This document shows positions 46,673-63,996 of a stretch of 64,000 nucleotides of DNA, one piece after another (the first letter of the stretch is position 1; each line of letters starts with the position of its first letter). Position numbers and translations under genes: made by a program. A model generated the notes under the pieces. The model was not told the DNA's origin and did no database searches. It saw only the letters and a list, made by a program, of their open reading frames with translations. The stretch is from Methylotenera sp. L2L1 (lineage in GTDB: Bacteria > Pseudomonadota > Gammaproteobacteria > Burkholderiales > Methylophilaceae), in NCBI RefSeq assembly GCF_000744605.1, contig NZ_JQMG01000001.1, forward strand, positions 2,170,001 through 2,234,000, given 5' to 3'.

Positions 46673-46683
46673 GACATCTCCTT

Positions 46684-46706
46684 AACTTGCATTTAAAATA
46701 CTACTT
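46684..46706 (-). promoter_or_regulatory. Predicted NsrR operator at the hmp promoter
   Basis: The 23-bp site has half AACTTGCATTT (46684-46694), a central A, and half AAATACTACTT. It matches the NsrR layout, an 11-1-11 inverted repeat of AAGATGCATTT, at most positions in the first half and the inner part of the second. Confidence 0.65.
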
Positions 46707-46790
46707 TTATGTTCAAAAAAAACACTCGGATGAGTGCTTGGTAAATCTTGCTGAATGAATACTGCTATCAGCCAATCATCTGAATGATGA

Positions 46791-47231
46791 TCAAGCTACA
46801 TATCGTTGATGCAACTTAATAACGGCTTGCTGTGTTTTATGATCCACAATACTTTGCAATGTGTATTTGTTCATTTCCTCATAAAAGCTATTTAAGCCGT
46901 GATCTAATATCTCTTTTAAATTACATTGACCACTTAAAACACAAAGCGGCTCAGCGCAATTAATCAGAGAAGTTTTATTCTCTAGCTCTCGTAAAACATT
47001 GCCTAGTTTTAGCTCCGCTGGTCTAACTCCAAGTTTTAAGCCTCCAGTCCTACCGCGTGTGGCAACAACCCAATTTAATTTATTTAACCTTGTCACCACT
47101 TTAATCAGGTGGTTTCTTGGGACATCAAACTGCTTAGCCACTTCATTAATGGTGACGGTGGACGTATTCACCTCTTGTGTGAGATACATTAGAACTCTTA
47201 GCCCTAAATCAGTGAACTTTGTAATTTGCAT
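46791..47231 (-). CDS. nsrR: Nitric oxide-sensing transcriptional repressor NsrR
   Basis: NsrR is an Rrf2-family repressor that uses an Fe-S cluster to sense NO. The 146-residue protein has the winged-helix N-terminus MQITKFTDLGLRVLMYL and three cluster cysteines at Cys92, Cys97 and Cys103 (CAEPLCVLSGQC), as in known NsrR proteins. I place the start at 47231; the longer frame upstream would add a hydrophobic tail unlike the family. It lies 118 bp upstream of hmp on the same strand, and its promoter has a large palindrome. Confidence 0.95.
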   Translation of the reverse strand: MQITKFTDLGLRVLMYLTQEVNTSTVTINEVAKQFDVPRNHLIKVVTRLNKLNWVVATRGRTGGLKLGVRPAELKLGNVLRELENKTSLINCAEPLCVLSGQCNLKEILDHGLNSFYEEMNKYTLQSIVDHKTQQAVIKLHQRYVA

Positions 47232-47248
47232 AGTTTGGTAATTTGCAT
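47215..47248 (-). repeat. 17-bp tandem repeat across the nsrR start codon
   Basis: Reading the minus strand, CTATGCAAATTACCAAA is followed at once by CTATGCAAATTACAAAG. The second copy carries the nsrR ATG; the first carries an extra ATG 17 bases upstream, in a different frame that closes within 14 codons. Confidence 0.85.
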
Positions 47249-47259
47249 AGTAGTGATGA

Positions 47260-47300
47260 ATTCTATATATGTTGCATAATATATGCAACATATATAGAAT
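47260..47300. promoter_or_regulatory. 41-bp perfect palindrome: predicted NsrR operator in its own promoter
   Basis: ATTCTATATATGTTGCATA (47260-47278) and its exact reverse complement (47282-47300) flank ATA. The central part, GTTGCATAA-T-ATATGCAAC, has the GCAT/ATGC spacing of NsrR sites. It lies between divergent nsrR and the dnr-like gene, so could control both. Confidence 0.7.
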
Positions 47301-47431
47301 AAAAATTAGTGAAAACAAGTATAAGGTAAAACTTGTTGGTAACTACCAATGCTTTCACGATGAAATATATCTACGTGACGCAATAATTGTTAATTACATT
47401 ATCAAACTTCAGCTTTTATTGGTATCTGCAA

Positions 47432-48115
47432 ATGAATAAATCCGTCATTTCACAAACTCTTTTTAACTTTTTTATGTTTAAGGAATTAGCACCAGAGCAA
47501 ATTGGCGTGATTGCAGAACATGCTCAACTCATTGACTTTCCAAAAGGGACGTCGATATTTAATCGTGGTGATGCGGCGGTTGGTCTTTATATTTTATTAG
47601 AAGGCCAATTAAAACTAGGAGTCACCTCTCCGCAAGGCAGTGAAAAAATCATCAGCATTGTGACACCCGGAGAAAGCTTCGGTGAAGCCATTTTGTTTCT
47701 AGAGCGGAAATTTCCTGTCTACGCACAAGCTATCATGGATTCTCAGGTATTACTCATACCAAAGAGCCTGATATTTTCCATGCTAGATAATGACCCACTA
47801 TTCTCTCGTAAGATGCTAGCTGGGTTGTCTGTCAGAATGCACCAACTGGTACAAGATATTGAAATGCTATCGTTGCAATCATGCACACAGCGCTTCATCG
47901 GCTATCTACTACAAATCAGCGCTGATGCGCCCGATGCCAGTAACATCACGTTGCCTACGAGTAAAACCACCATTGCCTCATTGCTGAACCTGACCCCAGA
48001 AACACTTTCACGCACTTTGGCAAAACTTCAGCAAATGGAGTTAATTGAAGTGCACGGCAAAGAGGTGATGATTACCGATGTGAAAAAACTGAGAAGCTAC
48101 GATTTAACAGTTTAG
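47432..48115 (+). CDS. Crp/Fnr-family regulator, Dnr-like
   Basis: A 227-residue regulator with an N-terminal cyclic-nucleotide-fold sensor (near residues 15-130, GDAAVGLYILLEGQLKLG, GESFGEAILFLERKFPV) and a C-terminal helix-turn-helix (TTIASLLNLTPETLSRTLAKL). There is no N-terminal cysteine cluster, so it is not Fnr; Dnr proteins, which sense NO through haem, fit best. The ATG at 47432 is preferred over one 45 bases upstream because the family starts near it. It overlaps norD tail to tail by 4 bp. Confidence 0.88.
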   Translation: MNKSVISQTLFNFFMFKELAPEQIGVIAEHAQLIDFPKGTSIFNRGDAAVGLYILLEGQLKLGVTSPQGSEKIISIVTPGESFGEAILFLERKFPVYAQAIMDSQVLLIPKSLIFSMLDNDPLFSRKMLAGLSVRMHQLVQDIEMLSLQSCTQRFIGYLLQISADAPDASNITLPTSKTTIASLLNLTPETLSRTLAKLQQMELIEVHGKEVMITDVKKLRSYDLTV

Positions 48116-49944
48116 CGTGTCATCTGCGCGTATAGCAACGGCAGCTCTTTCGGCAAGTCTTCAGGGTTACGAATCACCACATAACCACCTGCGCCGAAAA
48201 GATGCGGCAAATAGTCGCTGGCCTCGGAATCTATGGTGACGCAGAACGGCCGCAGCCCTAATTTTTTAGCTTCCAATAACGCCATGCGCGTATCCTCAAT
48301 ACCATAGCGCCCCTCATACTGATCCAGATCATTTGGTTTACCATCTGTCAGTATCAGCAATAGGCGTTGATGCTTTTTCTGCTGCACTAATAAGCTTGAT
48401 GCCTGCCTGATTGCTGCGCCCATGCGGGTGTAATAGCCGGGTTTGATCGCGGCAATGCGACCACGCACCTGACCGCTATATTTTTCTTCAAAACCCTTGA
48501 TGTAATGAAAGCGTACATGGCTACGCTTAAGCGATGAAAAACCGTATAGTGCAAAACTGTCACCAGTTGCAGTGAGCGCTTCTGAAAACAAAAGCAGGCT
48601 ATCGCGAATCACATCAATCACGCGTGAGTGATTTGAAACATAAGCATCAGTAGAAAGGGATAAATCGGCTAGGAGCAGACATGCCAGATCACGCTCCTGA
48701 TTCACCTGTACCCGGTAAAGCCCATGCTCTGAGGTTGGCATCGTGCTGTTTTTCTCAGAAACCAGCTGCACCCATGCATCCATATCCAGCTCATCGCCAT
48801 CCTGCTGACCTTTACGCCAATGCCTAGTCGGCGTAAGCGCCTGAAACTGGCGCCTTAGATGATTGGCTGTGTTTTTTAATGCGTGCGGGAGCTCGCACGG
48901 TTTGGCATCGGTGGCAATCAGCTGCTGCAAACTACAGTAATCCGGCTGCAACACCTGCTTTTTCCAGTGCCATTCTGGCAATAAAACGCCTTCACCCAGC
49001 GGCGTATCATCCACAGCACCGGCTGGTAAGTCAAGATCGAACCTCACATTGGCGGCACTGGTTTTACCATCGCGTGCGATGGTGAGGTTATCCATATCTT
49101 CAGCCGCTAACTGCGCGGTTTCCGAATCGTCCTCCTCATCCTGCGGGCGGTTCACCTTCACGAACTCAGACCATGAGAACAGGCTCTCGGCGCGGAACAT
49201 CATCAGAAAGCCATTTTTATCTTCCTTTGCATCGGTGCGCTCTGCCAGATGTTTACGTCGGCTCTTTTTATTGGCGGCGTTACCGCTTTGTTCAGGCGAG
49301 CCTAAGCCTGCAGCACTTGATGTTGCGGCATTCACAGGAGGATGTGGATGCGGCCATAGTGGTACCGGCTGGAACGGGCGCGCTGTCAGCGCTATAGCAT
49401 CCACCGTACCCGGATATTGCAATGCTTGGCGGATAGTGTTTTCCTGAGCTGCTTCATCTGCTGGCAGTTTTTCCGCTGGAATGCGCAGCGCGATGACGGC
49501 CTCTACCAGCCAGTCATAGCGGCTCTGTAAACCAGGGAAACGTTCAAGTGTGGCCTGGGTAGCTAACTGGTTTCTGATTATCCATGGCTGACTGTTATCT
49601 GACTCTGCTGCAGCTAAAGCTACCAGCCAGAAATACAGGTCGCGGTTCAGTGTCTGCTTTGCAAACAGGTCTATCTGCGATGGCAGCCGCAGCACTTCGC
49701 CGTCACGCCATGAAAGCTCTACCTTTTCACCGCTACCGGCCACGCGCTGCAGCAAACGCCGACGAGCTCCATGACGCACTGCCGGTGCTGCGGAAATACC
49801 CAGCCCGGGGTCGCCGCCTAATGCCCTGAAAAATATCGCAGCGGATTTGGCAATATCATCCAGCTTAACGGTCACTGCAGCATGACGCTTCTCTGCCGCC
49901 CCGGTAATCAGGCGATCCCACAGCGCTCCTACGTACTCTTCCAT
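48112..49944 (-). CDS. norD: Nitric oxide reductase activation protein NorD (VWA domain)
   Basis: NorD helps assemble or activate NO reductase with NorQ. The 610-residue protein has a variable N-terminal region and a C-terminal von Willebrand A domain with the metal site LLADLSLSTDA and the later LILTDGKPND. It begins at the last base of norQ (1-bp overlap) and its end overlaps the dnr-like gene by 4 bp. The 60 bases at 49741-49800 are 65% G+C against 47% at 47521-47580, so this part of the cluster looks GC-richer than its neighbours. Confidence 0.93.
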   Translation of the reverse strand: MEEYVGALWDRLITGAAEKRHAAVTVKLDDIAKSAAIFFRALGGDPGLGISAAPAVRHGARRRLLQRVAGSGEKVELSWRDGEVLRLPSQIDLFAKQTLNRDLYFWLVALAAAESDNSQPWIIRNQLATQATLERFPGLQSRYDWLVEAVIALRIPAEKLPADEAAQENTIRQALQYPGTVDAIALTARPFQPVPLWPHPHPPVNAATSSAAGLGSPEQSGNAANKKSRRKHLAERTDAKEDKNGFLMMFRAESLFSWSEFVKVNRPQDEEDDSETAQLAAEDMDNLTIARDGKTSAANVRFDLDLPAGAVDDTPLGEGVLLPEWHWKKQVLQPDYCSLQQLIATDAKPCELPHALKNTANHLRRQFQALTPTRHWRKGQQDGDELDMDAWVQLVSEKNSTMPTSEHGLYRVQVNQERDLACLLLADLSLSTDAYVSNHSRVIDVIRDSLLLFSEALTATGDSFALYGFSSLKRSHVRFHYIKGFEEKYSGQVRGRIAAIKPGYYTRMGAAIRQASSLLVQQKKHQRLLLILTDGKPNDLDQYEGRYGIEDTRMALLEAKKLGLRPFCVTIDSEASDYLPHLFGAGGYVVIRNPEDLPKELPLLYAQMTR

Positions 49945-50738
49945 TAACGTCCGAAGGTGGCGCTGACCACTTCATTCAAAGCGACTGCTGTTTCAGCGTC
50001 ATCAGTCAGCGTCTCCACCAAAGCAGCACGGCAGGCGCGCACTGGATCATAACCATCTTTAATCAAGGTAGCTGCATATACCAGCAGACGCGTACTGGCG
50101 ACTTCTTCCAGATCATGGTCACGCAAGGCACGGAATGCTCCGGCAATAGAAACTAGACGCTTGGCTGTCATGGTATCAATACCTGTTTCACCAATCAGTA
50201 CAGCCTCCTCCTGTGCAGCAGTCGGAAAATCAAACGTCAATGACACAAACCGCTGCCGGGTAGAAGGCTTCATGCCTTTTAAAAAGTTCTGATATCCAGG
50301 ATTGTAAGAAACCACCAGCATGAAAGACGGCGGCGCCTGTAGCAACTCTCCTGTGCGGTCAATCGGCAGCATACGCCTATCGTCCGCCAGCGGGTGCAGT
50401 ACCACGGTCGTATCTTTACGCGCTTCAACCACTTCATCCAGATAACAGATGCCGCCTTCACGCACCGCACGCGTCAGTGGTCCATCGTTCCAGATAGTTT
50501 CGCCATCACCGATTAAATGGCGACCAACCAAGTCCGCTGCGGTCAAGTCATCGTGGCAAGCCACGGTATACAGTGGCAGGTTTAAACGTGCCGCCATGTG
50601 CGACACAAACCTTGTTTTCCCGCAGCCGGTAGGACCTTTTATCAACAATGGCAGGCGGTTTTTCCAGGCGCGCTCAAATAGCTCGCACTCATCACCGCTT
50701 GGTTCATAAAATGGGGTATTGCTTGTTTTTGTATCCAT
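49944..50738 (-). CDS. norQ: AAA+ ATPase NorQ (MoxR family)
   Basis: NorQ is the ATPase partner of NorD for maturation of the NO reductase iron centre. The 264-residue protein has Walker A GPTGCGKTR (near residue 34), Walker B GICYLDEV, and the MoxR-type segment ADLVGRHLIGDGETIW. Just upstream is norF; the order norC-B-E-F-Q-D is seen. Confidence 0.95.
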   Translation of the reverse strand: MDTKTSNTPFYEPSGDECELFERAWKNRLPLLIKGPTGCGKTRFVSHMAARLNLPLYTVACHDDLTAADLVGRHLIGDGETIWNDGPLTRAVREGGICYLDEVVEARKDTTVVLHPLADDRRMLPIDRTGELLQAPPSFMLVVSYNPGYQNFLKGMKPSTRQRFVSLTFDFPTAAQEEAVLIGETGIDTMTAKRLVSIAGAFRALRDHDLEEVASTRLLVYAATLIKDGYDPVRACRAALVETLTDDAETAVALNEVVSATFGR

Positions 50739-50775
50739 GTAAACGCTTTCAATTCAGCCTGCTGAGCAGGCCATG

Positions 50776-51036
50776 CTAGTTCAGGTAAGCAATGGCAATC
50801 ATGCTGCCGACAATAACAAAGTAACCTAGAATAACGCCGCGCCACAGCCAGCCTACATAGCGCAAACCCATAAAATAATTAGCAATCAGTTGCCCTTTAA
50901 TTAGAGAGATTACTAGCACACTCAGCATTACGGTTTTTCCAGCGCTTACTTCTTCGCCGATTAAAAAGGTACCAATAGTGAGCATTACCAGCGTTAGCCA
51001 GATTAATGTAGCAAAACGGTTGAGTTGTGTATTCAT
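50776..51036 (-). CDS. norF: NorF-like small membrane subunit (cytochrome oxidase subunit IV family)
   Basis: An 86-residue protein with about three membrane helices and the segment LIKGQLIANYFMGLR, typical of the NorF/COX IV family. It starts 2 bp after norE, chosen at MNTQLNRF; an in-frame ATG 63 bases upstream overlaps norE and is not needed. A role in full NO reductase activity has been proposed for NorEF in other bacteria. Confidence 0.85.
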   Translation of the reverse strand: MNTQLNRFATLIWLTLVMLTIGTFLIGEEVSAGKTVMLSVLVISLIKGQLIANYFMGLRYVGWLWRGVILGYFVIVGSMIAIAYLN

Positions 51037-51038
51037 GG

Positions 51039-51623
51039 TTATCGAATAATATAAATCAATGGAAAAAGGATAATCCACAGCAGGTCTACCATGTGCCAAA
51101 ACGAGGCGCCGGTTTCAACCCCAAAATGCTCTTGTGCGCTGTAGACGCCGTTTTTTAATTTGTACACAATACATGCAAGAATAATCATGCCCATCAGCAC
51201 ATGCATCAGGTGGAAAAAAGTGAGCGTCAGGTAAAACATATAAAAATCGTTCGTTTCCAGCGTAATGCCCGCTGAGAATTTCTGATTAAATTCCCACAAC
51301 TTTACAGCGACAAACATGCCACCCATTAAAATAGTGCCGATTAACCAATGCGCAGACTGCTTCGAATTGTTTGACTTAATCGCAGATACCGAACGCACGA
51401 CAAAATAACTGCTGGTAATCAGAATAATCGTATTTAGAGTACCCAAGCCACGGCTTAAGGTAAGCTGAGATGTATTAAACACGTCAATCTGGTTAGAGCG
51501 CGCAAAGGCGTATACGATAAACATCACGCCAAACACCAGCATTTCTGCCAGAATAAATATCCAGATGGCAAAATCACCGGGCAAATCTTCTGTTTCATTC
51601 ACTAATGTTATGTTTGTATTCAT
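51039..51623 (-). CDS. norE: NorE-like membrane protein (cytochrome oxidase subunit III family)
   Basis: A 194-residue protein with about five helices and the COX III-type features LPGDFAIWIFILAEM and FHLMHVLMGMIIL and FWHMVDLLWI. It lacks catalytic metal ligands and is thought to help NO reductase assembly or activity. I start at ATG 51623; a TTG immediately before it is less likely. norF follows after 2 bp. Confidence 0.88.
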   Translation of the reverse strand: MNTNITLVNETEDLPGDFAIWIFILAEMLVFGVMFIVYAFARSNQIDVFNTSQLTLSRGLGTLNTIILITSSYFVVRSVSAIKSNNSKQSAHWLIGTILMGGMFVAVKLWEFNQKFSAGITLETNDFYMFYLTLTFFHLMHVLMGMIILACIVYKLKNGVYSAQEHFGVETGASFWHMVDLLWIILFPLIYIIR

Positions 51624-51659
51624 CAAGTTACCTAAAGTGTCATATTCACCAGCCTAATT

Positions 51660-51687
51660 AGAAGAAGGAGGCAAGCCTCCTTCTTCT
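51660..51687. terminator. Hairpin between norB and norE
   Basis: AGAAGAAGGAGGC (51660-51672) and GCCTCCTTCTTCT (51675-51687) are exact reverse complements around AA. There is no T tract, so partial termination or protection of the norCB message is possible. Confidence 0.55.
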
Positions 51688-51746
51688 GCCCTGCACTGTT
51701 ATACCAGCACTGTGATATAAGAACTGTTGTAAAAATCAGTGAGCAA

Positions 51747-53144
<1,398 letters not shown>

Positions 53145-53570
53145 TTAACCTTCGATGTTCGGAGGCCAGTTATTAGTGTTGATCTCTGAGGTATATTTCA
53201 AAAAATCAACGATACTATCCAACTCCTGCTCCGTAAAGTTGAACTGCGGCATCTGTCTTCTACCTGGTACACCAGTCGGCTGACCTTTGATCCATGCTTT
53301 AATAAAGTCTGGGCCACGGCGTTTGTATACATTGCCTAGCTCTGGTGCAAAATATGCCCCCTCTCCTAGTAAAGTATGGCAACCGATACAGTTATTGGTC
53401 TCCCATAACTTCTTGCCATGAATCACCGAAGCTGTCAGATTTTGGCTATTATCCCGTTTTGGTAACTTCTGATTGGTATCAAAAGTCAGTGCGAGAAACA
53501 GCAAGAAAAAGAACAGCGACCCCCCGAAAAAAATATTACGCGCCATGGATTTAGTAAATCTCGTAGCCAT
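53145..53570 (-). CDS. norC: Nitric oxide reductase subunit C (cytochrome c)
   Basis: NorC is the membrane-anchored cytochrome c that passes electrons to NorB. The 141-residue protein has one N-terminal helix (about 12-30), the haem motif CIGCH (Cys61, Cys64, His65) and the distal methionine in RRQMPQF. The site GGGGAGGT precedes the start. An Fnr/Dnr box lies about 68 bp upstream. Confidence 0.98.
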   Translation of the reverse strand: MATRFTKSMARNIFFGGSLFFFLLFLALTFDTNQKLPKRDNSQNLTASVIHGKKLWETNNCIGCHTLLGEGAYFAPELGNVYKRRGPDFIKAWIKGQPTGVPGRRQMPQFNFTEQELDSIVDFLKYTSEINTNNWPPNIEG

Positions 53571-53976: not shown

Positions 53977-56900
53977 ATGCAAGTTAACACCAAACCAACC
54001 AATTTAATCAGACACAAAATTATCCTGTGGTTATTCACAGGCTCAATACTGTTAATCGGTTTCGTTATCACGCATAAGTTATGGTCCAACGCACAGCAGG
54101 ACAACTTACAAAAACTTAACTCAGCTTTAGAAGACTCCGCAGACGTCACCGTTAGCAATTTACGAGCACGCTTTGATGCCATTCTAGTCATTATGCGTGG
54201 GGTTAAAGGGTTTATTGACGCATCCGATACAGTTCAGCCAGAAGAATTTCATACTTACATCAAGTCACTTAATTTAGATGACAAGTTTGGTGTTCGAGGC
54301 ATTGCCCTCGCAGAACTGATTGATAATGAAGATAAAGAAAATCATCTTAGCAAGATTAGAAAAAGAGGACTTTCTGATTATCAAATAAAACCTGCAGGAA
54401 ACCGGCAGCGCTATGCACCCATCACCTTAATAGAGCCGTTAGATGAAGCCAATATTCGGGCATTAGGTCTCGACGTGCTTGCATTACCCAGTGCTTTAAT
54501 GGCTCTTGAGCAATCAAGAGACAGCAACGATGTCCGCATTTCTACACGATTAACACTTGAACAAGATGTAGGTAAAAAAAATCAGCACTCTTTTGTGATG
54601 TACCTGCCAATTTATAGAAAACATGCATTAATCAATAGCCTAGAAGCTAGACGTAATGCAATCATCGGTTGGGTAGACGTGCCATTCCGCATGACTGACC
54701 TGATGAATGGATTTAAAGGCGAAATTGACGCTGATGTTGAAATCAAAATTTATCAAGGGCTAAAAGCCACAGAAGATACGCTGCTGTATAACACTGTAGA
54801 TCATCATGAAAAAAGCAGTGCGTCAGAGCAAAGCATCACAACGCAAAGAACTCTGGATACTGGCAGTAGCAAATGGTTGCTGTTTTTTCAAACAACACCA
54901 ACGTTTGAAGCACGTATTTTGCCCTATAGCAAACCAATGCTTGTCGCGCTACTTGGCTCAACATTAACAATACTATCTGCATTTTTAGCATGGTTTCTTT
55001 TAAGTAGTCGGCAGCGTGCAGAACATCGCTATCAAAAGCTTTTTGACCAAGCTGGTGATGGTGTTTTAGTCTTAAATTACCAACATCGTTTTATAGCGGC
55101 AAACTTGGCCGCCATGAACATGCTGGGATACCAGCAAAAAACACTTTTAAATATGCGTTTGCAAGATGTGCTGGTGAAAAATGTTACCGACCAATCAGAA
55201 TTTATCACTAAGCTAACATCAGATAACTCCATCAAAGGTGAGTGGCAATATCTACGCAAAGATGGTACCCAGTTCATCGCTGAGGTAAATTGCCGCAAAC
55301 TAGACAAAAACTACTATTTCGCCATTATCAGAGACCTAACTGATCGAAAGTTGGCTGAATATCGCATCAGACATCTTACCCAGCTTTACCAAGCCTTAAG
55401 TGAGGTAAACCAGGCGATTGTACGCATGGGTGATGATAATGACTTGTTCTCAGTTGTTTGCCGTTGCTCTGTTAATTTTGGGGGCATGAAAATGGCTTGG
55501 GTTGGCCAGCTTGATGAAGAAAGCCAACGCATTTTACCCGTAGCCGTCTATGGTGATGGCATTGATTATGTTGATAGTTTATTTATATCAGCGAGTGCAG
55601 ACCTGCCTGAGGGCCAAGGCCCTACAGGCAAAGCCTTAAGAGATAATCAAACCATTATTGTTAACGACTTTTCTACCGACCCAATCACAACACTATGGCA
55701 TGATAAAGCGAAAGCATTTGGATGGGGTTCATCTGTTGCTATCCCTATTCAGCGTGATCAAAAACCGTTTGCTGTACTCAATGTATATCATGAACATAAA
55801 AACTCTTTTGATGAAGAAGCGATTGCATTGTTACTGGAAATGGCTGGAGATATCAGCTTTGCACTTGATAACTTTGACAGAGAGGCGAAAAAACAAAAAC
55901 TAGTATTAGCGCTTGATCACGCACACAAACATATTAATCAAATAGTCAACCTTAGCCCCGCAGTGATTTATACACTAAAGGCTAATGAAAACGATGGCTT
56001 TACCATTGATTTCATTAGTGAAAACGTTTACAAAATGACTGGTTATCCTAAAGAAAAATGGGTGAGTCATGACTTTTGGATAAACCATATTCATGCAGAA
56101 GACATGGCTAGAGTGCTGGCTGCACAGGAAAGTCTATTTGAAACAGGGACATTAAACCACCATTATCGTTTTAACCATGCTAACGGTGAGTTCATATGGA
56201 TTGAAGATCAAGTCATGCTGGTGCGTGATGATAACGGCAAGCCTGTAGAGGTTGTAGGTGCATGGCTGGATATAACAGAAAGATTACATGCCGAAGAAAA
56301 ATTGCGCATCAACGCCAAAGTGTTTGAATCCAGCCGTGAGGGCATTCTGATTACCAATGAAAACAATCATATTCTCTCAGTCAACAGAGCATTCACTACA
56401 ATTACAGGTCATGAATCTGATGATGTCATTGGGAAAACGCCAGATATTCTGATTTCTGGCAATACAACGCCAGCCTTTAATGATGCAATGTGGGAAAACA
56501 TTAGCAGATTTGGCTATTGGCAAGGCGAGGTCGCAAATCGCAGAAAAAATGGTGAGCTCTACCCTCAATGGCTTTCTATTAGCACCATTAAAGGCTCAAC
56601 TGGAAAAGTTTCTCAGTATATCTGCATTATCACCGACATTTCAGAGCGTAAAGTAGCGGAAGAACGCATACAGTTCTTAAGCAACTTTGATTCACTAACC
56701 AATCTACCCAATCGAAATCTATTAAATGATAGAACGACGCTTGCCCTAGCCTCAGCCAATCGTACTAAAAGTACAGTGGCGTTAATGTATCTTGATCTTG
56801 ACCGTTTCAAATTTATTAACGAATCATTAGGCCCAACCGCTGGTGATCGAGTGTTAAAAGAACTGGCTGAACGTTTGCTAAGAAATGTTCTCCCAGAAGA

Positions 56901-57954
56901 CACCGTATGTCGCCAAGGTGGCGATGAGTTTATTATATTACTGCCCAATACTGATGCTGAAGCTGCCGCACACGTCGCTAAAAAGCTACTGGATGTGATT
57001 GCCCAACCCTTTAATTTCAATGGTCAAAGAATCGTGCTGACTGCTAGTATTGGTATCTCAGCTTATCCACAAGATGGTGATAACTTTGAACAGTTAGCAC
57101 AATCCGCAGATGCTGCACTTTACCGTGCAAAACATGAAGGCCGTAATAACTTTCAGTTCTTTGCACGTCAAATGCACGAGCAAGCCAATGATGTTCTGCT
57201 ACTCGAAAACGAGCTACGCAATGCCATAGAGCATCAAGAGTTTTTGTTGTACTACCAGCCGCAATACGATAGCAAAACATCAAAAATTGTTGGCTTAGAA
57301 GCACTCATACGCTGGCAACACCCAGAAAAAGGCTTAGTTTCCCCTGCTGTTTTTATCCCGATTGCGGAAGAAAGTGGCCTCATTACTGAAATTGGCGATT
57401 GGGTTTTACGTACAGCTGTCCAGCAACTCGCTACTTGGCAAAGTGCAGGCTTAAAAGCCGTGCCTGTCGCAGTCAACTTATCTGTGGTTCAGTTTCATCA
57501 AGAGACCCTTTACGGTAGCGTTTGTCAAATCCTCAGAGATACCAAAGTCGACCCCAACATGCTGGAGCTAGAGCTCACTGAAGGCATCGCGATGGAAGAC
57601 TCCGAACGCACACTCAATATGCTAAACCAATTGAATGCGCTAGGTGTCAGACTTTCTATCGATGACTTTGGTACAGGCTACTCTTCTCTCAGTTATTTGA
57701 AAAAATTCAAGATTGATAAACTTAAAATTGACCAATCTTTCGTAAAAGGCCTAGGGAGCCACCCTCAAGATGCGGCAATTATCACAGCCATCATCAGCAT
57801 GGCAAAAAGTTTGGGATTTAAAACCATTGCAGAAGGGGTTGAGACACTGGAGCAACTAAACTTCTTAATTCAACATGAATGCGACGAAATCCAAGGATAC
57901 TACTTTAGTAAACCGCTACCGAGTGACGAAGTCGCTAGACTTCTCTCAAAATAA
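53977..57954 (+). CDS. Large membrane c-di-GMP protein: CHASE-PAS-GAF-PAS-PAS-GGDEF-EAL
   Basis: A 1325-residue signalling protein. Order: membrane helix (about 14-32), CHASE sensor (about 60-290), second helix (about 312-338), PAS (348-465), GAF (480-640), two PAS (about 660-900), GGDEF (about 905-1065) and EAL (1075-1320). The GGDEF site is intact (QGGDEF) but the inhibitory RxxD position reads LPED. The EAL domain keeps EALIRW, NLSVVQF, LELTEG, IDDFGTGYSS, KIDQSFV and EGVET. So it may make and degrade c-di-GMP. It lies divergent from norC. Confidence 0.93.
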   Translation: MQVNTKPTNLIRHKIILWLFTGSILLIGFVITHKLWSNAQQDNLQKLNSALEDSADVTVSNLRARFDAILVIMRGVKGFIDASDTVQPEEFHTYIKSLNLDDKFGVRGIALAELIDNEDKENHLSKIRKRGLSDYQIKPAGNRQRYAPITLIEPLDEANIRALGLDVLALPSALMALEQSRDSNDVRISTRLTLEQDVGKKNQHSFVMYLPIYRKHALINSLEARRNAIIGWVDVPFRMTDLMNGFKGEIDADVEIKIYQGLKATEDTLLYNTVDHHEKSSASEQSITTQRTLDTGSSKWLLFFQTTPTFEARILPYSKPMLVALLGSTLTILSAFLAWFLLSSRQRAEHRYQKLFDQAGDGVLVLNYQHRFIAANLAAMNMLGYQQKTLLNMRLQDVLVKNVTDQSEFITKLTSDNSIKGEWQYLRKDGTQFIAEVNCRKLDKNYYFAIIRDLTDRKLAEYRIRHLTQLYQALSEVNQAIVRMGDDNDLFSVVCRCSVNFGGMKMAWVGQLDEESQRILPVAVYGDGIDYVDSLFISASADLPEGQGPTGKALRDNQTIIVNDFSTDPITTLWHDKAKAFGWGSSVAIPIQRDQKPFAVLNVYHEHKNSFDEEAIALLLEMAGDISFALDNFDREAKKQKLVLALDHAHKHINQIVNLSPAVIYTLKANENDGFTIDFISENVYKMTGYPKEKWVSHDFWINHIHAEDMARVLAAQESLFETGTLNHHYRFNHANGEFIWIEDQVMLVRDDNGKPVEVVGAWLDITERLHAEEKLRINAKVFESSREGILITNENNHILSVNRAFTTITGHESDDVIGKTPDILISGNTTPAFNDAMWENISRFGYWQGEVANRRKNGELYPQWLSISTIKGSTGKVSQYICIITDISERKVAEERIQFLSNFDSLTNLPNRNLLNDRTTLALASANRTKSTVALMYLDLDRFKFINESLGPTAGDRVLKELAERLLRNVLPEDTVCRQGGDEFIILLPNTDAEAAAHVAKKLLDVIAQPFNFNGQRIVLTASIGISAYPQDGDNFEQLAQSADAALYRAKHEGRNNFQFFARQMHEQANDVLLLENELRNAIEHQEFLLYYQPQYDSKTSKIVGLEALIRWQHPEKGLVSPAVFIPIAEESGLITEIGDWVLRTAVQQLATWQSAGLKAVPVAVNLSVVQFHQETLYGSVCQILRDTKVDPNMLELELTEGIAMEDSERTLNMLNQLNALGVRLSIDDFGTGYSSLSYLKKFKIDKLKIDQSFVKGLGSHPQDAAIITAIISMAKSLGFKTIAEGVETLEQLNFLIQHECDEIQGYYFSKPLPSDEVARLLSK

Positions 57955-57990: not shown

Positions 57991-58833
57991 ATGAACTTTG
58001 ATTTGATTTTAATTTTTCTGGCACTTGGTGCTTTTGTAGGTCTAGCCGCTGGTCTATTGGGCATTGGCGGTGGTGGCGTATTGGTACCGATGCTTACTGC
58101 AATATTCTTAAGCCAGAATATCCCAGTTGATCAAGTTGTGCATTTGGCACTAGGGACATCCATGGCTTGCATCATGGTCACCTCTTTATCTAGCCTACGT
58201 GCGCACCATGCCAACGGCGCAGTGGTTTGGCCACTGGTAAAACTAATGACCTTAGGTGTTGTCATTGGTACATTCTCCGCCACTTTTATCGCGTCTATGA
58301 TTAGCTCAAAAGCACTGGCAATATTTTTCGCATGCTTTATGGGCTACGTAGCGATTCAGATGTTCTCCAACTCAAAATCAAGCAATCACAAAGACAGCCA
58401 ATCCAAGACATATCATGAAATCAATCGGCTTGAACTCATGCTCGCGTCAGTAGGCATAGGCTCTATTTCGGCTATCGTTTCCATCGGTGGCGGTTCAATT
58501 ACTGTGCCATACCTCACTTGGCGCAAGATAGATATCAAAAAGGCCATCGGTACGTCAGCGGCTATTGGCTTTCCATTATCAATTGCAGGTAGCCTTGGCT
58601 ACTTATTAAGCGGCTGGTCACATACGCCATCTATTCCGTACACCTATGGTTTTATTAACTTACCTGCGGTGCTGGTCATTTCAATCACCAGTTTTCTTGC
58701 TGCCCCCACCGGAGCAAATCTTACGCAAAAACTACCTGTCAGGACGCTGAAAAAAATCTTTGCATTACTGCTCGCAATATTAAGTCTAAAAATGCTTTGG
58801 AACCTGCAATTATTGCCTTGCTGCAACTTTTAA
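57991..58833 (+). CDS. TauE/SafE-family membrane permease
   Basis: A 280-residue protein with about eight helices and glycine-rich repeat halves: GLAAGLLGIGGGGVLVP near residue 20 and ISAIVSIGGGSITVP near 165. TauE/SafE proteins export or import sulfite, organosulfonates or related acids. The substrate is unknown. It is 36 bp after the signalling gene and 67 bp before the FAD protein. Confidence 0.88.
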   Translation: MNFDLILIFLALGAFVGLAAGLLGIGGGGVLVPMLTAIFLSQNIPVDQVVHLALGTSMACIMVTSLSSLRAHHANGAVVWPLVKLMTLGVVIGTFSATFIASMISSKALAIFFACFMGYVAIQMFSNSKSSNHKDSQSKTYHEINRLELMLASVGIGSISAIVSIGGGSITVPYLTWRKIDIKKAIGTSAAIGFPLSIAGSLGYLLSGWSHTPSIPYTYGFINLPAVLVISITSFLAAPTGANLTQKLPVRTLKKIFALLLAILSLKMLWNLQLLPCCNF

Positions 58834-58900: not shown

Positions 58901-61402
58901 ATGCGCAATCACTTTGATGTCATTATTATTGGTGCGGGTCCCAGTGGCTTATCAGCAGCAGCACGTGCGTCCGAGCAAAAGCTATCTTATCTTGTATTAG
59001 AAGCCGCAGAAGCTGCCGCCAATACGATTCGCAATTACCAGCGTCGCAAACTGGTCATGGCTGAGCCACGCGGCTTACCATTACGTAGCCCCCTACCTTT
59101 TGCTGCTTCACTACGCGAATCTGTATTAGACGCATGGGAAAGCTTAATCGAAAACTATCAAATCAATATACGATACAGTGCCAAAGTTGTGGCGATCTCG
59201 CGTGAAGGCGAGGCTGATAAAAAAGGTGCACGTGGCAAACTGGAACCATTAAAGGTTGAATTGAGTGATGGTGACGCATTCACCGCAGATAACGTCATAT
59301 TAGCAATTGGCGTACAAGGCAATTTACGTAAACTAGAAATTCCAGGCGGCGACTTACCTCAAATTCAGTATCAACTAGATGACCCTGAGGCTTACCAGAA
59401 CGAAACCATCGTTGTGATTGGTGGTGGCGATACTGGGGTTGAAAATGCGCTGGCACTCACTGGCCGCAATCAGGTCATTGTATTAAACCGTGCTGAAGAC
59501 TTTAGTAATTGTAAGGAAAGCAACCTTACCCAATTAACGGAAGCAAGACAAAGAGGCGCTTTAGACTGGCTGTTAGAAACACGCCCACAATCTATTGAGC
59601 AAAACAGCAAGGGTGAGTTTCCAATCACATTATTTGCCGATACACCCAAAGGTGTAGAGCGCATTCCATGTCATCGGATTATTGCGCGCCTTGGTGCACT
59701 CCCTTCTAGGCCTTTACTTGAAAGCTTCGGGGTTGCTTTTCCTACAGCAGACTTAGCCGCCCTTCCTGTGCTGTCATCTCGTTACGAATCTAATGTGCCG
59801 GGCTTGTATATCATTGGCGCACTTGCAGGTTATCCTCTGATCAAACAAGGGATTAACCAAGGTTACGAGGTTATTGAGCATATTCTAGGCAACCCAGTTG
59901 AAGCCGCTGATACAGCGTTGCTACGAGAGAAATTTTCCAGTTTTTGCTCTGATCGCGGCATTGAAGATGTACTGGATAAGATTCAGCGTAGCGTTCCACT
60001 ATTACGGCTACTCAATTCATTACAACTAAGAGAGTTGATTCTCGAAAGTAATATTTTACAGCCTGCACCGGCTGATATTATCTTTGAGCGTAACGACTAC
60101 AGCACCTCCTTCTTTTTTGTCATTGAAGGTGAGCTCGAAATGCTCATCGATGAAGATGATATCCCTGACGACACCTTTAAAAGCGGTGAATTTTTTGGCG
60201 AAATGGGCTTGTTGTCGGGTCGCCGTAGAATTGCCACAGTAAGAGCCAAAACACATTGCGCACTGATTGAAACACCACGTCGCGTCATATTAAAGCTCAT
60301 TAATTCAGTGCAAGCCATGCGTAGGACACTGGATGAAGTGGCAATTAAACGTATCGTACATGCAAGTATTGGCCTTTCTTTGAGTGAAGATGACCTCAAT
60401 GACCTAGCGTCGCATGCCATTATTAAACAATATGCAGCGGGTGAAGAGCTGTTTCATGAGGGCGATGAAGCAGATGGACTTTATCTAATCAGGCGTGGCT
60501 CTGTCACGGTTTCACGCATGATGACAGGTCGAGAAGTTGTTTTGTTCTATGTGGCCGCAGGCAATTACGTTGGTGAAATGTCATTGATTTCTGGCGAACC
60601 TCGCTACGCGACTGTACGCGCAGCCATTGCGACTGAAGCCATTTTAATTGATGTGGCGCGCATGCAAGGCATCATTGCGCGTAATCCTGAAGTTCGCGCA
60701 TCACTTGATGCTCGTTACTTACAACACTTGCAAGAACAAGAAAAAAGGCAGCAATTAGAAACCTCGTCAGAAAGTGGCAGTAGCTTTGCAAACCAAACCA
60801 CGCAATCAAGCCTGATCTCATTTTTAATTCAACAAGGCGTGGGTGAAGCTACTGACGTTTTATTGATTGATGAGTCATTATGCGTGCGCTGCAACCACTG
60901 CGAACAAGCTTGTGCTGACACACACGGTGGCGCTACACGGCTAGATCGCGATACTGGCCCCATATATGCCAACATTCGGGTGCCTACGTCTTGTCGCCAC
61001 TGCGAACACCCTCACTGCATGAAGGATTGCCCGCCTGACGCGATTCATCGCGCACCACATGGCGAAGTCTATATTGATGATAGCTGTATTGGTTGCGGCA
61101 ACTGCCAGCAAAATTGCCCATATGATGTGATCCAAATGGCTGTGATTCAGGATCAGCCCGAACAAAGTTTATGGCAAATGCTACTGGGCATTCAACCTAA
61201 GCAAGTTGCTTCTACTAACAATACAAAAGTTGCGGTTAAATGTGATATGTGCAAAGACATTGCGGATGGACCGGTATGCGTACGCGCCTGCCCCGTTGGC
61301 GCTGCCTTGCGGGTAAATCCTGAAGAGCTTTTAGGCTACGCAAGCAACAATGCTGCTAATAGCGCTGATGAACACAACTTACTAGGGCTAGATGATGCAT
61401 AG
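58901..61402 (+). CDS. FAD/NAD(P) oxidoreductase fused to two cyclic-nucleotide-binding domains and a 4x[4Fe-4S] ferredoxin
   Basis: An 833-residue cytoplasmic multidomain protein. Residues 1-330 are a thioredoxin-reductase-like flavoprotein with dinucleotide motifs GAGPSGLSAA and IGGGDTGVENA, but no redox CxxC. Two cNMP domains follow, about 375-490 and 500-620, both with GEM..L.SG..R.ATVRA, so the phosphate-binding arginine is kept. The last 170 residues have four ferredoxin clusters: CVRCNHCEQAC, CRHCEHPHCMKDC, CIGCGNCQQNC and CDMCKDIADGPVCVRAC. It likely sends NAD(P)H electrons on, tuned by a cyclic nucleotide. It is followed by the membrane cytochrome after 12 bp. Confidence 0.9.
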   Translation: MRNHFDVIIIGAGPSGLSAAARASEQKLSYLVLEAAEAAANTIRNYQRRKLVMAEPRGLPLRSPLPFAASLRESVLDAWESLIENYQINIRYSAKVVAISREGEADKKGARGKLEPLKVELSDGDAFTADNVILAIGVQGNLRKLEIPGGDLPQIQYQLDDPEAYQNETIVVIGGGDTGVENALALTGRNQVIVLNRAEDFSNCKESNLTQLTEARQRGALDWLLETRPQSIEQNSKGEFPITLFADTPKGVERIPCHRIIARLGALPSRPLLESFGVAFPTADLAALPVLSSRYESNVPGLYIIGALAGYPLIKQGINQGYEVIEHILGNPVEAADTALLREKFSSFCSDRGIEDVLDKIQRSVPLLRLLNSLQLRELILESNILQPAPADIIFERNDYSTSFFFVIEGELEMLIDEDDIPDDTFKSGEFFGEMGLLSGRRRIATVRAKTHCALIETPRRVILKLINSVQAMRRTLDEVAIKRIVHASIGLSLSEDDLNDLASHAIIKQYAAGEELFHEGDEADGLYLIRRGSVTVSRMMTGREVVLFYVAAGNYVGEMSLISGEPRYATVRAAIATEAILIDVARMQGIIARNPEVRASLDARYLQHLQEQEKRQQLETSSESGSSFANQTTQSSLISFLIQQGVGEATDVLLIDESLCVRCNHCEQACADTHGGATRLDRDTGPIYANIRVPTSCRHCEHPHCMKDCPPDAIHRAPHGEVYIDDSCIGCGNCQQNCPYDVIQMAVIQDQPEQSLWQMLLGIQPKQVASTNNTKVAVKCDMCKDIADGPVCVRACPVGAALRVNPEELLGYASNNAANSADEHNLLGLDDA

Positions 61403-61414
61403 AGGGAATATTTA

Positions 61415-62245
61415 ATGCAACAAAGCAATATGTTCGACTATAAAAACTATCGCTATTTTAAAATAGCCGTCGTGATTATTTTAATTGCATTCGCTGCTTT
61501 TTTATTTTTTGAGCCTGCAGTCGGTCATTATGGCGGCAGCTGGCTTGGTTATACACTAGGTACCATATCAGCACTCATGGTGCTATGGATGACGTGGTAT
61601 GGCATCAGAAAACGTCGCTACCGTGGCACTGGCGCAACACAGGGCTGGCTATCAGCCCACATTTACTTAGGCACAGCGCTCACAGTTTTTGTAACATTAC
61701 ATAGCGGCTTTCATTTTGGGCTTAATATTCATACACTAGCCTACGCCCTACTGTTGATTGTTGTCATCAGCGGTTTTTTTGGCAATTACACTTACATGAT
61801 TTACCCACGAAAAATGACAGAAAACATGGGTGAAGATAGCCTAGATGGCCTACTGTTAAGAATTGCCGAGGCAGATAAGTTAGCACGTAAAATTGCCTTA
61901 CTAATGCCAGATGAAATCAATAACGTCGTATTACGCGCGTGTCGTGAGACCTCCATTGGATTAAGCTTAATTGACCAACTAAGCGGCTTTCAACCGAACT
62001 GCCCGTCTGCAAGAGCCGTACAAGAACTGACGATACTGGGTCAAAATTTAGCCGTAGAGCAACGCAAACTATATCGTGAGCTGTATTCAATCATGGTGCG
62101 CCGTGAGTCTTTAGTTAAACGAGCACGTCAAGACCTCATGTACCGCGCCAGGCTTGGTATCTGGCTATACTTGCATGTGCCATTTACCGTGGGCTTATTA
62201 GTCGCCATGCTGGCGCACATCATTGCCGTATTTGTCTACTGGTAA
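61415..62245 (+). CDS. Membrane protein, probable b-type cytochrome
   Basis: A 276-residue protein with about five helices (roughly 15-33, 43-62, 80-100, 106-125, 250-275). Paired histidines sit in HIYLGTALTVFVTLHSGFH and in LHVPFTVGLLVAMLAH, a spacing that could hold haem b. A soluble helical segment of about 110 residues lies between helices 4 and 5. Placed between a ferredoxin-fused flavoprotein and a decahaem cytochrome, a membrane electron carrier is the best guess; not in a family I can name. Confidence 0.7.
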   Translation: MQQSNMFDYKNYRYFKIAVVIILIAFAAFLFFEPAVGHYGGSWLGYTLGTISALMVLWMTWYGIRKRRYRGTGATQGWLSAHIYLGTALTVFVTLHSGFHFGLNIHTLAYALLLIVVISGFFGNYTYMIYPRKMTENMGEDSLDGLLLRIAEADKLARKIALLMPDEINNVVLRACRETSIGLSLIDQLSGFQPNCPSARAVQELTILGQNLAVEQRKLYRELYSIMVRRESLVKRARQDLMYRARLGIWLYLHVPFTVGLLVAMLAHIIAVFVYW

Positions 62246-62349
62246 TGGCAAACTTAAATCCATGTGTTAAAAAACCTAACACTTACCAATGCATTTGAAA
62301 TAAAAATAACAATGCCAAATAAAGCAAAAGTAGATGAATAGAACTTTTT

Positions 62350-63996
62350 ATGATTAATTGTTTGTTAATAAAAATCACCAATAACTCTCGTGGACTTCCT
62401 GTCCGCAATTACCGCACACTCAACGCCGCAGAGTTAATGATTGGCCGCAGTGCAGAGTGCAATATTCATTTGGCTGACCCTCGTATCGCTATGCATCATG
62501 CAGTGATTAAAGAGTTAGAAGATGGGCATATTTACGTTGTTAGTTTAAACGGTGAGATTGAAGTCGACGGCGCAATGTTGCAGAACATCAAGCTCACTCC
62601 TGGCAAGCAGGTCATGATTGGCCCTTATCAGTTAAATGTTGAACCTGCACCCCCTGATGTTAACTTATCGATTTCGCTGACACTTGTTAATCCGCTTGCT
62701 GATGACTATCAAGACCTTAAAGCACGCACACACGAGCCTTTACCAAGCGCATTTAAATTCAAATGGCGTTTATCAATGTGGTTAATCGGCATTATATCGC
62801 TAGTCTTTTTGGTATTACCTCTAGCCCAAAATCTAATACCGCAATTGCAAACATCAATGTCAGAACTACCATTTGGTTTTGACCGCGTTTGGAGCTCTGG
62901 TCGCATCTCCACGGCTCATCGCCATTTTGGCTCTCAATGCTTTAATTGCCATCAAGCACCACTTAAAAAAGTCTCAGACAAAGCCTGTGTGAACTGCCAT
63001 CAGGATACTGCACCTCATATTGCGGATCCAGAGCTACAAAAGCGCTCCTTAAAGGCCGCTCACCGCTTTATTGGCAGTATGCGCTGTGCAGAGTGTCATC
63101 AAGAGCACAAGGCGCCACATCCACTTGCACGTCAAGACAATAATATGTGCATTAAATGCCATGGCGCCATTAGGACCATAGACCCAGAAACAAAGCTACC
63201 CAATATCCGTGATTTCGAGAAAAAACACCCAGATTTTAAATTAAGCTTTAAGACTGGCCCAGATGCTAAAGATATCGAGCGCATTCCGCAATCAGACCAA
63301 TCTAAACTGATTGAGCAATCAGGTTTAAAATTTCCGCATGATCAGCATATTGGAAAAGTACAAGGGCCTAATGGCATTTGGGATGTCCGTGAGCTTGCAT
63401 GTACCAGTTGCCATCAGGCTGAAGGTAAAGAAATGCGTTTTAAAGCGCTCTCTTTCAAAAACAACTGTAGCACTTGCCATACGAGCGAACTTAAAATCGG
63501 CCCTAAAGATAATAAATTAACCTTACCGCACGGTGAAGAACAAAACATTTTCAACGCCTTAAAACTATACGCACCTAAAGAGTTTGATCGTTATTCAGAC
63601 CAGCTCAAAAACAACGGCTGCGCTTATTGCCACGAAATACAGCCCACAAAAGCCGGAGATAAATCGCCTTGGCATGTCATGCCGTTGCGCTTAAACAACG
63701 ACTGGTTCACTAAGGCTCAGTTTAACCATGCAGCTCATCGCACACAGCAGTGTACTTCATGCCATAAAGTAGAAAAGTCAGAAAGCAGTGCCGATGTTGC
63801 AATCCCTAACCGACAATCATGCTTGCTCTGTCACTCTGGCAACACACAAAAGCATAAGCGCATTGCTAGCACTTGCATGTCTTGCCATACCTTCCACAAT
63901 GCACATCAAGGCTATGATTTAATTACTGGTGCAAAAGTAGAGACTAAAGACATAGATATATTAAGCACATTACCAACAGCTACTGAGAAGCAATAG
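62350..63996 (+). CDS. FHA domain - membrane helix - decahaem cytochrome c fusion
   Basis: A 548-residue protein. Residues 1-110 are an FHA domain (IGRSAECNIHLADPR, then HHAVI); the GR arginine is present but the usual serine before the histidine is alanine. A membrane helix follows at about 141-162, then a periplasmic region with ten CxxCH haem motifs: CFNCH, CVNCH, CAECH, CIKCH, CTSCH, CSTCH, CAYCH, CTSCH, CLLCH and CMSCH. The FHA part must be cytoplasmic, the haems periplasmic. Stop codon is at 63994-63996, so it is complete. 104 bp after the membrane cytochrome. Confidence 0.9.
   Translation: MINCLLIKITNNSRGLPVRNYRTLNAAELMIGRSAECNIHLADPRIAMHHAVIKELEDGHIYVVSLNGEIEVDGAMLQNIKLTPGKQVMIGPYQLNVEPAPPDVNLSISLTLVNPLADDYQDLKARTHEPLPSAFKFKWRLSMWLIGIISLVFLVLPLAQNLIPQLQTSMSELPFGFDRVWSSGRISTAHRHFGSQCFNCHQAPLKKVSDKACVNCHQDTAPHIADPELQKRSLKAAHRFIGSMRCAECHQEHKAPHPLARQDNNMCIKCHGAIRTIDPETKLPNIRDFEKKHPDFKLSFKTGPDAKDIERIPQSDQSKLIEQSGLKFPHDQHIGKVQGPNGIWDVRELACTSCHQAEGKEMRFKALSFKNNCSTCHTSELKIGPKDNKLTLPHGEEQNIFNALKLYAPKEFDRYSDQLKNNGCAYCHEIQPTKAGDKSPWHVMPLRLNNDWFTKAQFNHAAHRTQQCTSCHKVEKSESSADVAIPNRQSCLLCHSGNTQKHKRIASTCMSCHTFHNAHQGYDLITGAKVETKDIDILSTLPTATEKQ

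Follow-up and report, generated by a model that had tools for sequence, protein, structure and literature searches.

A candidate inner-membrane unit for cyclic-nucleotide-regulated electron export in Methylotenera sp. L2L1 and its relatives

Introduction

Porin-cytochrome clusters (PCC) of two kinds, PCC3 and PCC4, were described in iron oxidisers by He et al. in 2017 and proposed to serve in iron oxidation. According to the main text of that paper (PMC5566968), the inner membrane proteins (IMPs) of both have five transmembrane (TM) helices, two WX3HX13H motifs and an SGXXG motif; PCC3 cytochromes, with a median of 34 and 21 haems, are accompanied by a porin, and PCC4 includes a 10-haem cytochrome and, in its subgroup II, a pfam13247 gene upstream of the IMP gene. 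The same text proposes that the path is linked to quinone and takes electrons from Fe(II) or other donors outside the cell, in a model that is a hypothesis ending at quinone, and makes no mention of FAD, FHA or cyclic nucleotide. Table 1 of PMC10734462 lists a forkhead-associated protein with 10 CXXCH motifs in 27 of 87 iron-oxidising Gallionellaceae genomes, with no function given there, and the available text of PMC6344600 mentions putative novel PCC genes in Methylotenera. Here we analyse three adjacent genes of a 64,000-nucleotide stretch of the Methylotenera sp. L2L1 genome (the window): gene A, for a protein with FAD/NAD(P), tandem cyclic-nucleotide-binding (cNMP) and ferredoxin domains; gene B, for a five-helix membrane protein; and gene C, for an FHA-decahaem cytochrome. 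As far as sequence can tell, A-B-C is a real, conserved electron-transfer unit, and we lean towards reading it as an inner-membrane unit for cyclic-nucleotide-regulated electron export from NAD(P)H rather than as a quinone link.

With PCC4 subgroup II the window shares an IMP with five TM helices, two WX3HX13H motifs and SGXXG (B), a pfam13247 iron-sulphur gene directly upstream of it (A, at a gap of 12 nt) and a 10-haem cytochrome (C), whereas neither the 4- and 5-haem cytochromes nor, with the porin-like protein of a relative (locus L159) as query, the porin were found by tblastn in the window or its extension (L001), and the FAD, cyclic-nucleotide and FHA features of A and C are absent from the published main text. 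PCC3 shares its IMP motifs with B but has very large multihaem cytochromes and a porin, where the C of the window has ten haems, and B matches PCC3-type homologues weakly (E 1e-12 or worse). A-B-C is a variant of an inner-membrane theme whose outline was already known and which PCC4 partly anticipates. New here are an NAD(P)H/FAD-cNMP terminus inherited together with B and C; the outer-membrane extensions of relatives, both in their breadth and in the D-E-F(-G) module; and an A-like FAD-ferredoxin protein next to PCC3-type homologues. No description of the A-B-C-D-E-F cluster or a permuted form of it was found in the open-access literature searched, and the available text of PMC3770913, PMC13322032 and PMC3728764 holds nothing of the A-B-C kind. 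The initial annotation, made from the letters of the window, had recognised no named respiratory complex in the arrangement; this stands in that none of the 25 NCBIfam models listed (of 179) scores A anywhere near its cut-off, on which ground such a complex was rejected, but not in that the arrangement is partly on record as PCC4 parts.

Materials and methods

Open reading frame (ORF) coordinates and translations of the window were used, and the domains of A, B and C were sought by Pfam and NCBIfam profile searches. The window genome is one contig of 2.64 Mb, of which a stretch extending 11.5 kb beyond C (L001) was also taken. The class sample comprised 369 genomes (GTDB Gammaproteobacteria by inference, betaproteobacteria included), with cut-offs of E<=1e-60 for A, E<=1e-3 for B (E<=1e-40 for strong B) and E<=1e-10 for C; the limit for strong B was chosen after viewing the list, in which the next genome's best B match stood at about 1e-12. 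The genus sample comprised 25 genomes, the window's own included, and a second class sample 385 genomes of the class of an alphaproteobacterial metagenome-assembled genome, with B at E<=1e-20 and 30 loci fetched. The named-locus sample is the best 80 of at least 553 confirmed loci; the nearest of these are from Methylotenera, with B 98% and 95% identical. Gap medians were taken over the window and these 80 loci, with gene starts called mechanically. For loci in which A does not adjoin B, the genomes of 12 of the 22 such named loci, together with G025 and G027, were checked for A, and the positive control (L139) was found.

Distinct proteins went into the ligand alignments (75 for A, 101 for B, 95 for C), each locus contributing no more than one to an alignment; they were kept if longer than 700 aa (A) or 250 aa (B) or carrying at least eight CxxCH (C), with shorter pieces left out; the filter on C biases that set toward high haem counts. 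A PCC3-type set of 13 loci (L034-L046) was fetched from 47 genomes with weak B homologues only. Neighbourhoods were read for cyclases and kinases in 46 genomes, over stretches around A or B, some of them short; PF00211 was checked in G025, G152 and G413, and tblastn was used for the spread of cyclases.

Results

Conservation of the three genes

A, B and C are co-directional (positions 58901-63996), and the 12 nt between A and B and 104 nt between B and C compare with medians of 13 nt (n=58) and 7.5 nt (n=76), respectively. A promoter scan was at chance level (8 found, 10.7 expected). That the three genes form one functional unit had been suggested by the initial annotation, for which independent occurrence in related genomes was to be one refutation, and the class sample bears the claim out: A is present in 17 of 369 genomes, B in 64, strong B in 17 and C in 16, and the 17 genomes with A are the 17 with strong B, 16 of which also have C. 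C was missed in G269 alone, whose B match reaches one end of a short contig. Independent occurrence was mostly not seen, the exceptions being G416 and G027, which have B-C with no A detected. A and B adjoin directly in 14 of the 17 genomes; G152, with two copies, has them apart on one contig, and in G078 and G269 they are on separate contigs. In the genus sample, strong B was found in 17 of 25 genomes and A-B-C in all 17 fetched loci, and the flanks of Methylotenera loci vary (mqo, a cytochrome c oxidase-like or a typA-like gene, by eye) while the trio stays together. The second class sample has B in 37 of 385 genomes, adjoined by A in 25 and by C in 29 of the 30 fetched loci; among the best 80 named loci, A lies within the locus in 58 and C in 78. 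Because gene order and ligands are kept across loci titled Alpha-, Beta- and Gammaproteobacteria, chance is excluded. The distances of A, B and C correlate at 0.97, and at 0.76-0.78 for divergent pairs.

Where A is not beside B it was located elsewhere in 12 of 14 genomes, namely 11 of the 12 named ones and G025. In 10 of those 11 named genomes it stands right behind F, a multihaem gene of the outer-membrane module described below, on the same strand (for the eleventh, the contig breaks off at A), and a tetrahaem c554-like gene was called between F and A in seven of the ten; the cluster is thus permuted, to B-C-D-E-F-(G)-A.

Domains and ligands

The features of the three genes, followed by those upstream, are collected in Table 1. 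The genes, strands, coordinates and motifs assigned to A, B and C by the initial annotation were all recovered as it gave them, and its path from NAD(P)H through FAD, [4Fe-4S] and haem b to haem c is supported by the domains and by ligand conservation, with NAD(P)H as the presumed donor.

Table 1. Positions in the window of the three genes, their domains and the features upstream.
Feature	Positions	Strand	Basis
Gene A, FAD/NAD(P) - cNMP - cNMP - 4x[4Fe-4S], 833 aa	58901..61402	+	ORF, Pfam, alignment
A residues 5-321, YpdA/thioredoxin-reductase-like FAD + NAD(P) module (GxGPSG, GGGDTGVE)	58913..59863	+	PF07992, TIGR04018, solved relatives 7a7b, 7a76
A residues ~392-486, first cNMP domain, putative pocket Glu434/Arg443	60074..60358	+	Pfam, alignment, structure relatives; limits by eye
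A residues 509-595, second cNMP domain, putative pocket Glu559/Arg568	60425..60685	+	Pfam, alignment
A residues ~655-805, ferredoxin part, 16 invariant Cys = four [4Fe-4S], HycB/DmsB/NrfC-like	60863..61315	+	Profiles, alignment, 7qv7 HycB3 E 8.8e-20
Gene B, putative five-helix di-haem-b inner membrane protein of PCC3/PCC4 IMP kind, 276 aa	61415..62245	+	Motifs, alignment, AlphaFold2
Gene C, FHA - TM helix - decahaem cytochrome c, 548 aa	62350..63996	+	ORF, Pfam, alignment
C residues 23-99, FHA fold; Gly32/Arg33 kept, Ala at the phosphothreonine-contacting Ser position	62416..62646	+	Pfam, NCBIfam, alignment
C residues ~142-165, single TM helix	62773..62844	+	Read from sequence
C residues 190-516, ten CxxCH + ten invariant other His (190, 223, 253, 293, 330, 333, 394, 460, 463, 516)	62917..63897	+	Alignment
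Nitric-oxide block	45470-53570		By eye
1325-aa protein, looks like PAS/GAF-GGDEF-EAL	53977-57954		
TauE-family transporter gene	57991-58833		

In A, Pfam finds the FAD-NAD(P) families PF07992 (E 2.5e-23) and PF13738 (E 8.6e-25), two PF00027 stretches (E 8e-37; 125.5 bits against a curated cut-off of 27.5) and 4Fe-4S families, PF13247 among them (E 3e-10). All sixteen iron-sulphur Cys, in the quartets 661/664/667/671, 698/701/706/710, 729/732/735/739 and 781/784/793/797, are invariant in the 75 aligned proteins. The tandem cNMP pair resembles the regulatory domains of PKG and PKA in a search for structure relatives, and the Glu/Arg pair that we take to form the cyclic-nucleotide pocket of PF00027 domains is kept in the first (E434 and R443, both 75/75) and nearly so in the second (E559 in 74/75, R568 in 70/75); binding of cAMP or cGMP by these domains is putative. 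The flavin module is a sequence relative of YpdA, the bacillithiol disulfide reductase (7a7b), but it scores below the cut-off of the YpdA model TIGR04018 (105.7 bits, cut-off 339.9), lacks a CxxC and has Ser at the presumed position of the active-site Cys of YpdA; YpdA activity was rejected for A.

No Pfam family matches B above its cut-off. The protein carries W78-X3-H82-X13-H96, S119-G-x-x-G123 and W250-X3-H254-X13-H268, and among 101 aligned proteins the four His, both Trp, G120 and G123 are invariant and S119 is kept in 99. Its AlphaFold2 model (mean pLDDT 78.8) has five long hydrophobic helices and a helical domain between TM4 and TM5. Since basic stretches follow TM2 (RKRRYR) and TM4, the positive-inside rule for membrane protein topology places the TM4-TM5 domain in the cytosol; as haem pairs, H82/H254 would lie at the cytosolic and H96/H268 at the periplasmic side. 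With the ferric reductase and NOX family (PF01794) B shares two HX13H pairs on two helices, but Pfam finds no PF01794 match. The trio would work as NADPH oxidases and ferric reductases do, with NADPH, FAD, two stacked haems b and an outside acceptor; unlike them, it splits its flavin and membrane parts over separate proteins, has four Fe-S clusters between these and has a decahaem acceptor.

The FHA domain of C is found by Pfam at E 1.2e-7. In the C family the ten CxxCH positions and exactly ten other His are conserved in 94-95 of 95 proteins, and in the seven whose strict CxxCH count is nine the aligned ligand columns are still kept. Ten haem sites matched by ten further invariant His suggest bis-His ligation throughout and hence a wire, with no haem evidently open as a catalytic site; on this ground a catalytic multihaem reductase was rejected. 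Of the ORFs listed around the trio, no other encodes a multihaem protein; the PF14537 matches of the genome outside C fall in a DnaJ-like gene, and a CxxCH-type DNA pattern, too narrow to be informative, gave no match in the genome.

Haems of the c type attach in the periplasm and C has a single TM helix, so that its FHA domain should be cytosolic. Signalling domains had been placed on both ends of the path by the initial annotation; the cNMP and FHA domains would instead both lie on the cytosolic side. FHA readers of phosphothreonine have the residue set G-R ... S-x-x-H ... N. Among the 92 FHA-bearing C proteins the Gly is kept in 92, the Arg in 88, the His in 79 and the phosphothreonine-contacting Ser in 17, with Asn at position 67 in 35, where the alignment is uncertain; the C of the window, with Ala for this Ser, lacks the reader set, and 3 of 95 C proteins (loci L063, L084, L085) have no FHA domain. 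With the Ser mostly lost, the domain looks to us more like a docking fold than like an established reader of phosphothreonine, and a signalling role of the FHA domain, as first annotated, is doubtful.

PCC3-type relatives and outer-membrane extensions

We infer the 13 loci with weak B homologues to be PCC3-type. Both WX3HX13H motifs and SGxxG are present in 12 of the 13 homologues, and the thirteenth, a shorter frame, has one WX3HX13H and SGxxG; a cytochrome frame with at least 12 CxxCH is found in 11 of the loci. An A-like FAD-ferredoxin protein adjoins 11 of the 13 B homologues when the query is taken from L040, itself one of the 13, and 10 when it is A's own FAD module; in L035, one of the eleven, 28 residues of the protein lie within the fetched stretch. 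The FAD modules are 30-39% identical to A over the longer segments, and the ferredoxin motifs come in another order. An A-like protein in this position favours NAD(P)H as the inner electron source. In L036, L037 and L039-L046 the FAD and ferredoxin protein has, by eye, a hydrophobic N-terminus, and its flavin segments match A in a different order, possibly by circular permutation.

In the outer-membrane module of relatives, D is an HbpS-like protein (PF03928) with a lipoprotein-type signal, by eye, in 8 of 12 listed, and F combines ten CxxCH with LVIVD repeats. E, present in 34 of the best 80 named loci, is an outer-membrane barrel, with 18 strands counted in an AlphaFold2 model of mean pLDDT 67.9 and poor N-terminal part; with this model Foldseek returns AlgE and Occ porins (best E 1.8e-14), and the C-terminal residue is Tyr or Phe in 31 of 31 listed E proteins. 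Cytochrome c maturation (ccm) genes, named from sequence, adjoin several clusters. Locus L159 has A-B-C with a 5-haem and a 4-haem cytochrome and a 524-aa porin-like protein without Pfam match (read from sequence), an outer set that fits PCC4.

Neighbouring genes

A class III cyclase gene lies near A or B in 7 of the 46 genomes read (G025, G045, G078, G152, G207, G269, G413). A block of CHASE2-cyclase, TPR and FecR genes stands between or beside A and B in L047:6824-12923, L048, L057 and L067, and in G152 separates A from B-C in both copies; the class III cyclase of G413 is a different one, carries TPR repeats and follows 83 nt behind A on the same strand (L178:1219-3030). Ser/Thr kinase genes lie near C in 2 of the 46 genomes (G214, G245), with a PP2C gene in one. 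Outside the window, its genome has two class III cyclase matches, one strong and the other marginal, and three kinase matches above the cut-off. Near A in four genomes (G045, G049, G152, G269; L047, L048, L050, L061, L066) there is also a glutamate dehydrogenase-like gene, a possible NADP(H) link.

Upstream of the trio, the nitric-oxide block of Table 1 holds, by eye, norC, norB, norE/F-like, norQ and norD genes, a CRP/FNR-type and an NsrR-like regulator and a flavohaemoglobin. NorB/NorC stand beside A-B-C in the nearest relative only (L068/L087) among the loci compared; most other fetched Methylotenera loci have A-B-C and no NorB/NorC in the stretch, by which a denitrification-specific role was ruled out. 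The TauE-family gene, next to that of the 1325-aa protein and just upstream of A, keeps its position in L068/L087, L086, L088 and L089 among the loci compared. Downstream, mqo (malate:quinone oxidoreductase; L001:5767-7248; L072, L073, L074, L088, L089, L098) lies 2-20 nt behind C in several Methylotenera loci, as if co-transcribed; in the window genome the distance from C to mqo is 269 nt, with a GC-rich inverted repeat (ATTCCCGC...GCGGGAAT) in the gap.

Discussion

Under the reading that we favour, the three proteins would form a complex in which A, in the cytosol, oxidises NAD(P)H via its FAD module and passes electrons over its four [4Fe-4S] clusters to B, probably through the cytosolic helical domain of the latter. 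Two stacked haems b in B, ligated by H82-H254 near the cytosol and by H96-H268 near the periplasm, would conduct them through the membrane, and C, anchored by one helix, would accept them onto its ten-haem, all-bis-His periplasmic wire, while cyclic nucleotide at the tandem PKA/PKG-like domains of A would open or close the flow. In relatives the wire would be extended by an outer-membrane barrel and additional multihaem proteins (D-E-F-G or the PCC4-like porin set), giving a pathway for extracellular electron transfer; in the window organism, where no such module was found in the searches made, the sink is probably a periplasmic acceptor. Outward flow from NAD(P)H is redox-downhill and unopposed by the membrane potential, as in NADPH oxidases.

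Several observations weigh against this reading. Haem, flavin, NAD(P)H and cNMP binding by the trio is putative, and the model of B gave no confident PDB match in Foldseek (best E 0.27). Strong B is missing from 8 of the 25 genus genomes, those being 71-90% complete, A was not detected in G416 and G027, both with B-C and the latter 100% complete, and the correlation of the A, B and C distances may reflect species descent alone. L001:1-6000 holds 13 terminator-like sites, mostly within genes, against 5.9 by chance, and one weak site of this kind lies at the end of B. As for the outer side, F had no match in the window genome, in a search without positive control; MtrB_PioB had none over the cut-off there, the PCC4 porin itself not being sought genome-wide; and D to G and the porin-like, 4-haem and 5-haem proteins of L159 had no tblastn match at E<=1e-3 within the window and L001, which for D, E and G was the part of the genome searched. 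Finally, no cyclase was found in the loci of the 17 genus genomes, nor in the best 80 named loci with flanks of up to 10 kb.

Other accounts of the trio have to be weighed. B might be a quinone-active cytochrome b, with C and B carrying electrons between the quinone pool and a donor in the periplasm or outside the cell, and A as an accessory or sensor. The PCC3/PCC4 model in the main text of PMC5566968 supports such an account, as does mqo directly behind C in a set of Methylotenera loci, and the occurrence of B-C without detected A in G027 and G416 suggests that B-C can serve another donor, perhaps quinol. A is, however, nearly always in the same genomes as B, and its FAD, NAD(P) and Fe-S motifs are nearly all invariant, which makes this account unlikely in our opinion. 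The reverse direction, with electrons from Fe(II) or a similar donor in the periplasm or outside the cell passing inward to NAD(P)+, would by established bioenergetics oppose both the redox potential and the membrane potential; the trio shows no coupling module, and Methylotenera is a methylotroph. Electron uptake of this kind appears quite improbable, even though the relatives listed include some from contigs titled Gallionella and one whose contig name refers to a biocathode, and the forkhead-associated 10-CXXCH protein of iron-oxidising Gallionellaceae (PMC10734462) points the same way.

We give very little credence to a redox sensor, in which A-B-C would gauge NAD(P)H or the periplasmic redox state and signal via cNMP and FHA in place of carrying electrons in bulk. 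Two regulatory domain types are present, in fact, and kinase and PP2C genes lie near C in the few genomes named above, but a sensor would hardly need ten haem sites with as many further His and sixteen Cys for clusters, the FHA domain is missing from some C proteins and its Ser from most, and there is linkage to ccm genes and, in relatives, to genes of an outer-membrane conduit.

Regulated electron export from NAD(P)H is hence the reading we retain. A wider generalisation is possible, though we would not presently expect it to hold: PCC3- and PCC4-type IMPs would be the membrane half of widespread bacterial NAD(P)H-driven exporters, NADPH-oxidase-like and ending in multihaem wires, of which the window form would be cNMP-switched post-translationally. 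We know of no earlier cNMP-gated transmembrane electron conduit; if the reading is true, the window form would be the first known to us. The cytosolic NAD(P)H/FAD/Fe-S protein offers a specific, testable inner terminus for PCC3- and PCC4-type clusters, and its co-inheritance points to electron export and suggests fast control by cyclic nucleotides. The A-B-C-D-E-F cluster and its permuted form, which occur in loci titled Alpha-, Beta- and Gammaproteobacteria, would add an extracellular electron-transfer system, and the findings may bear on the way methylotrophs dispose of electrons at low oxygen.

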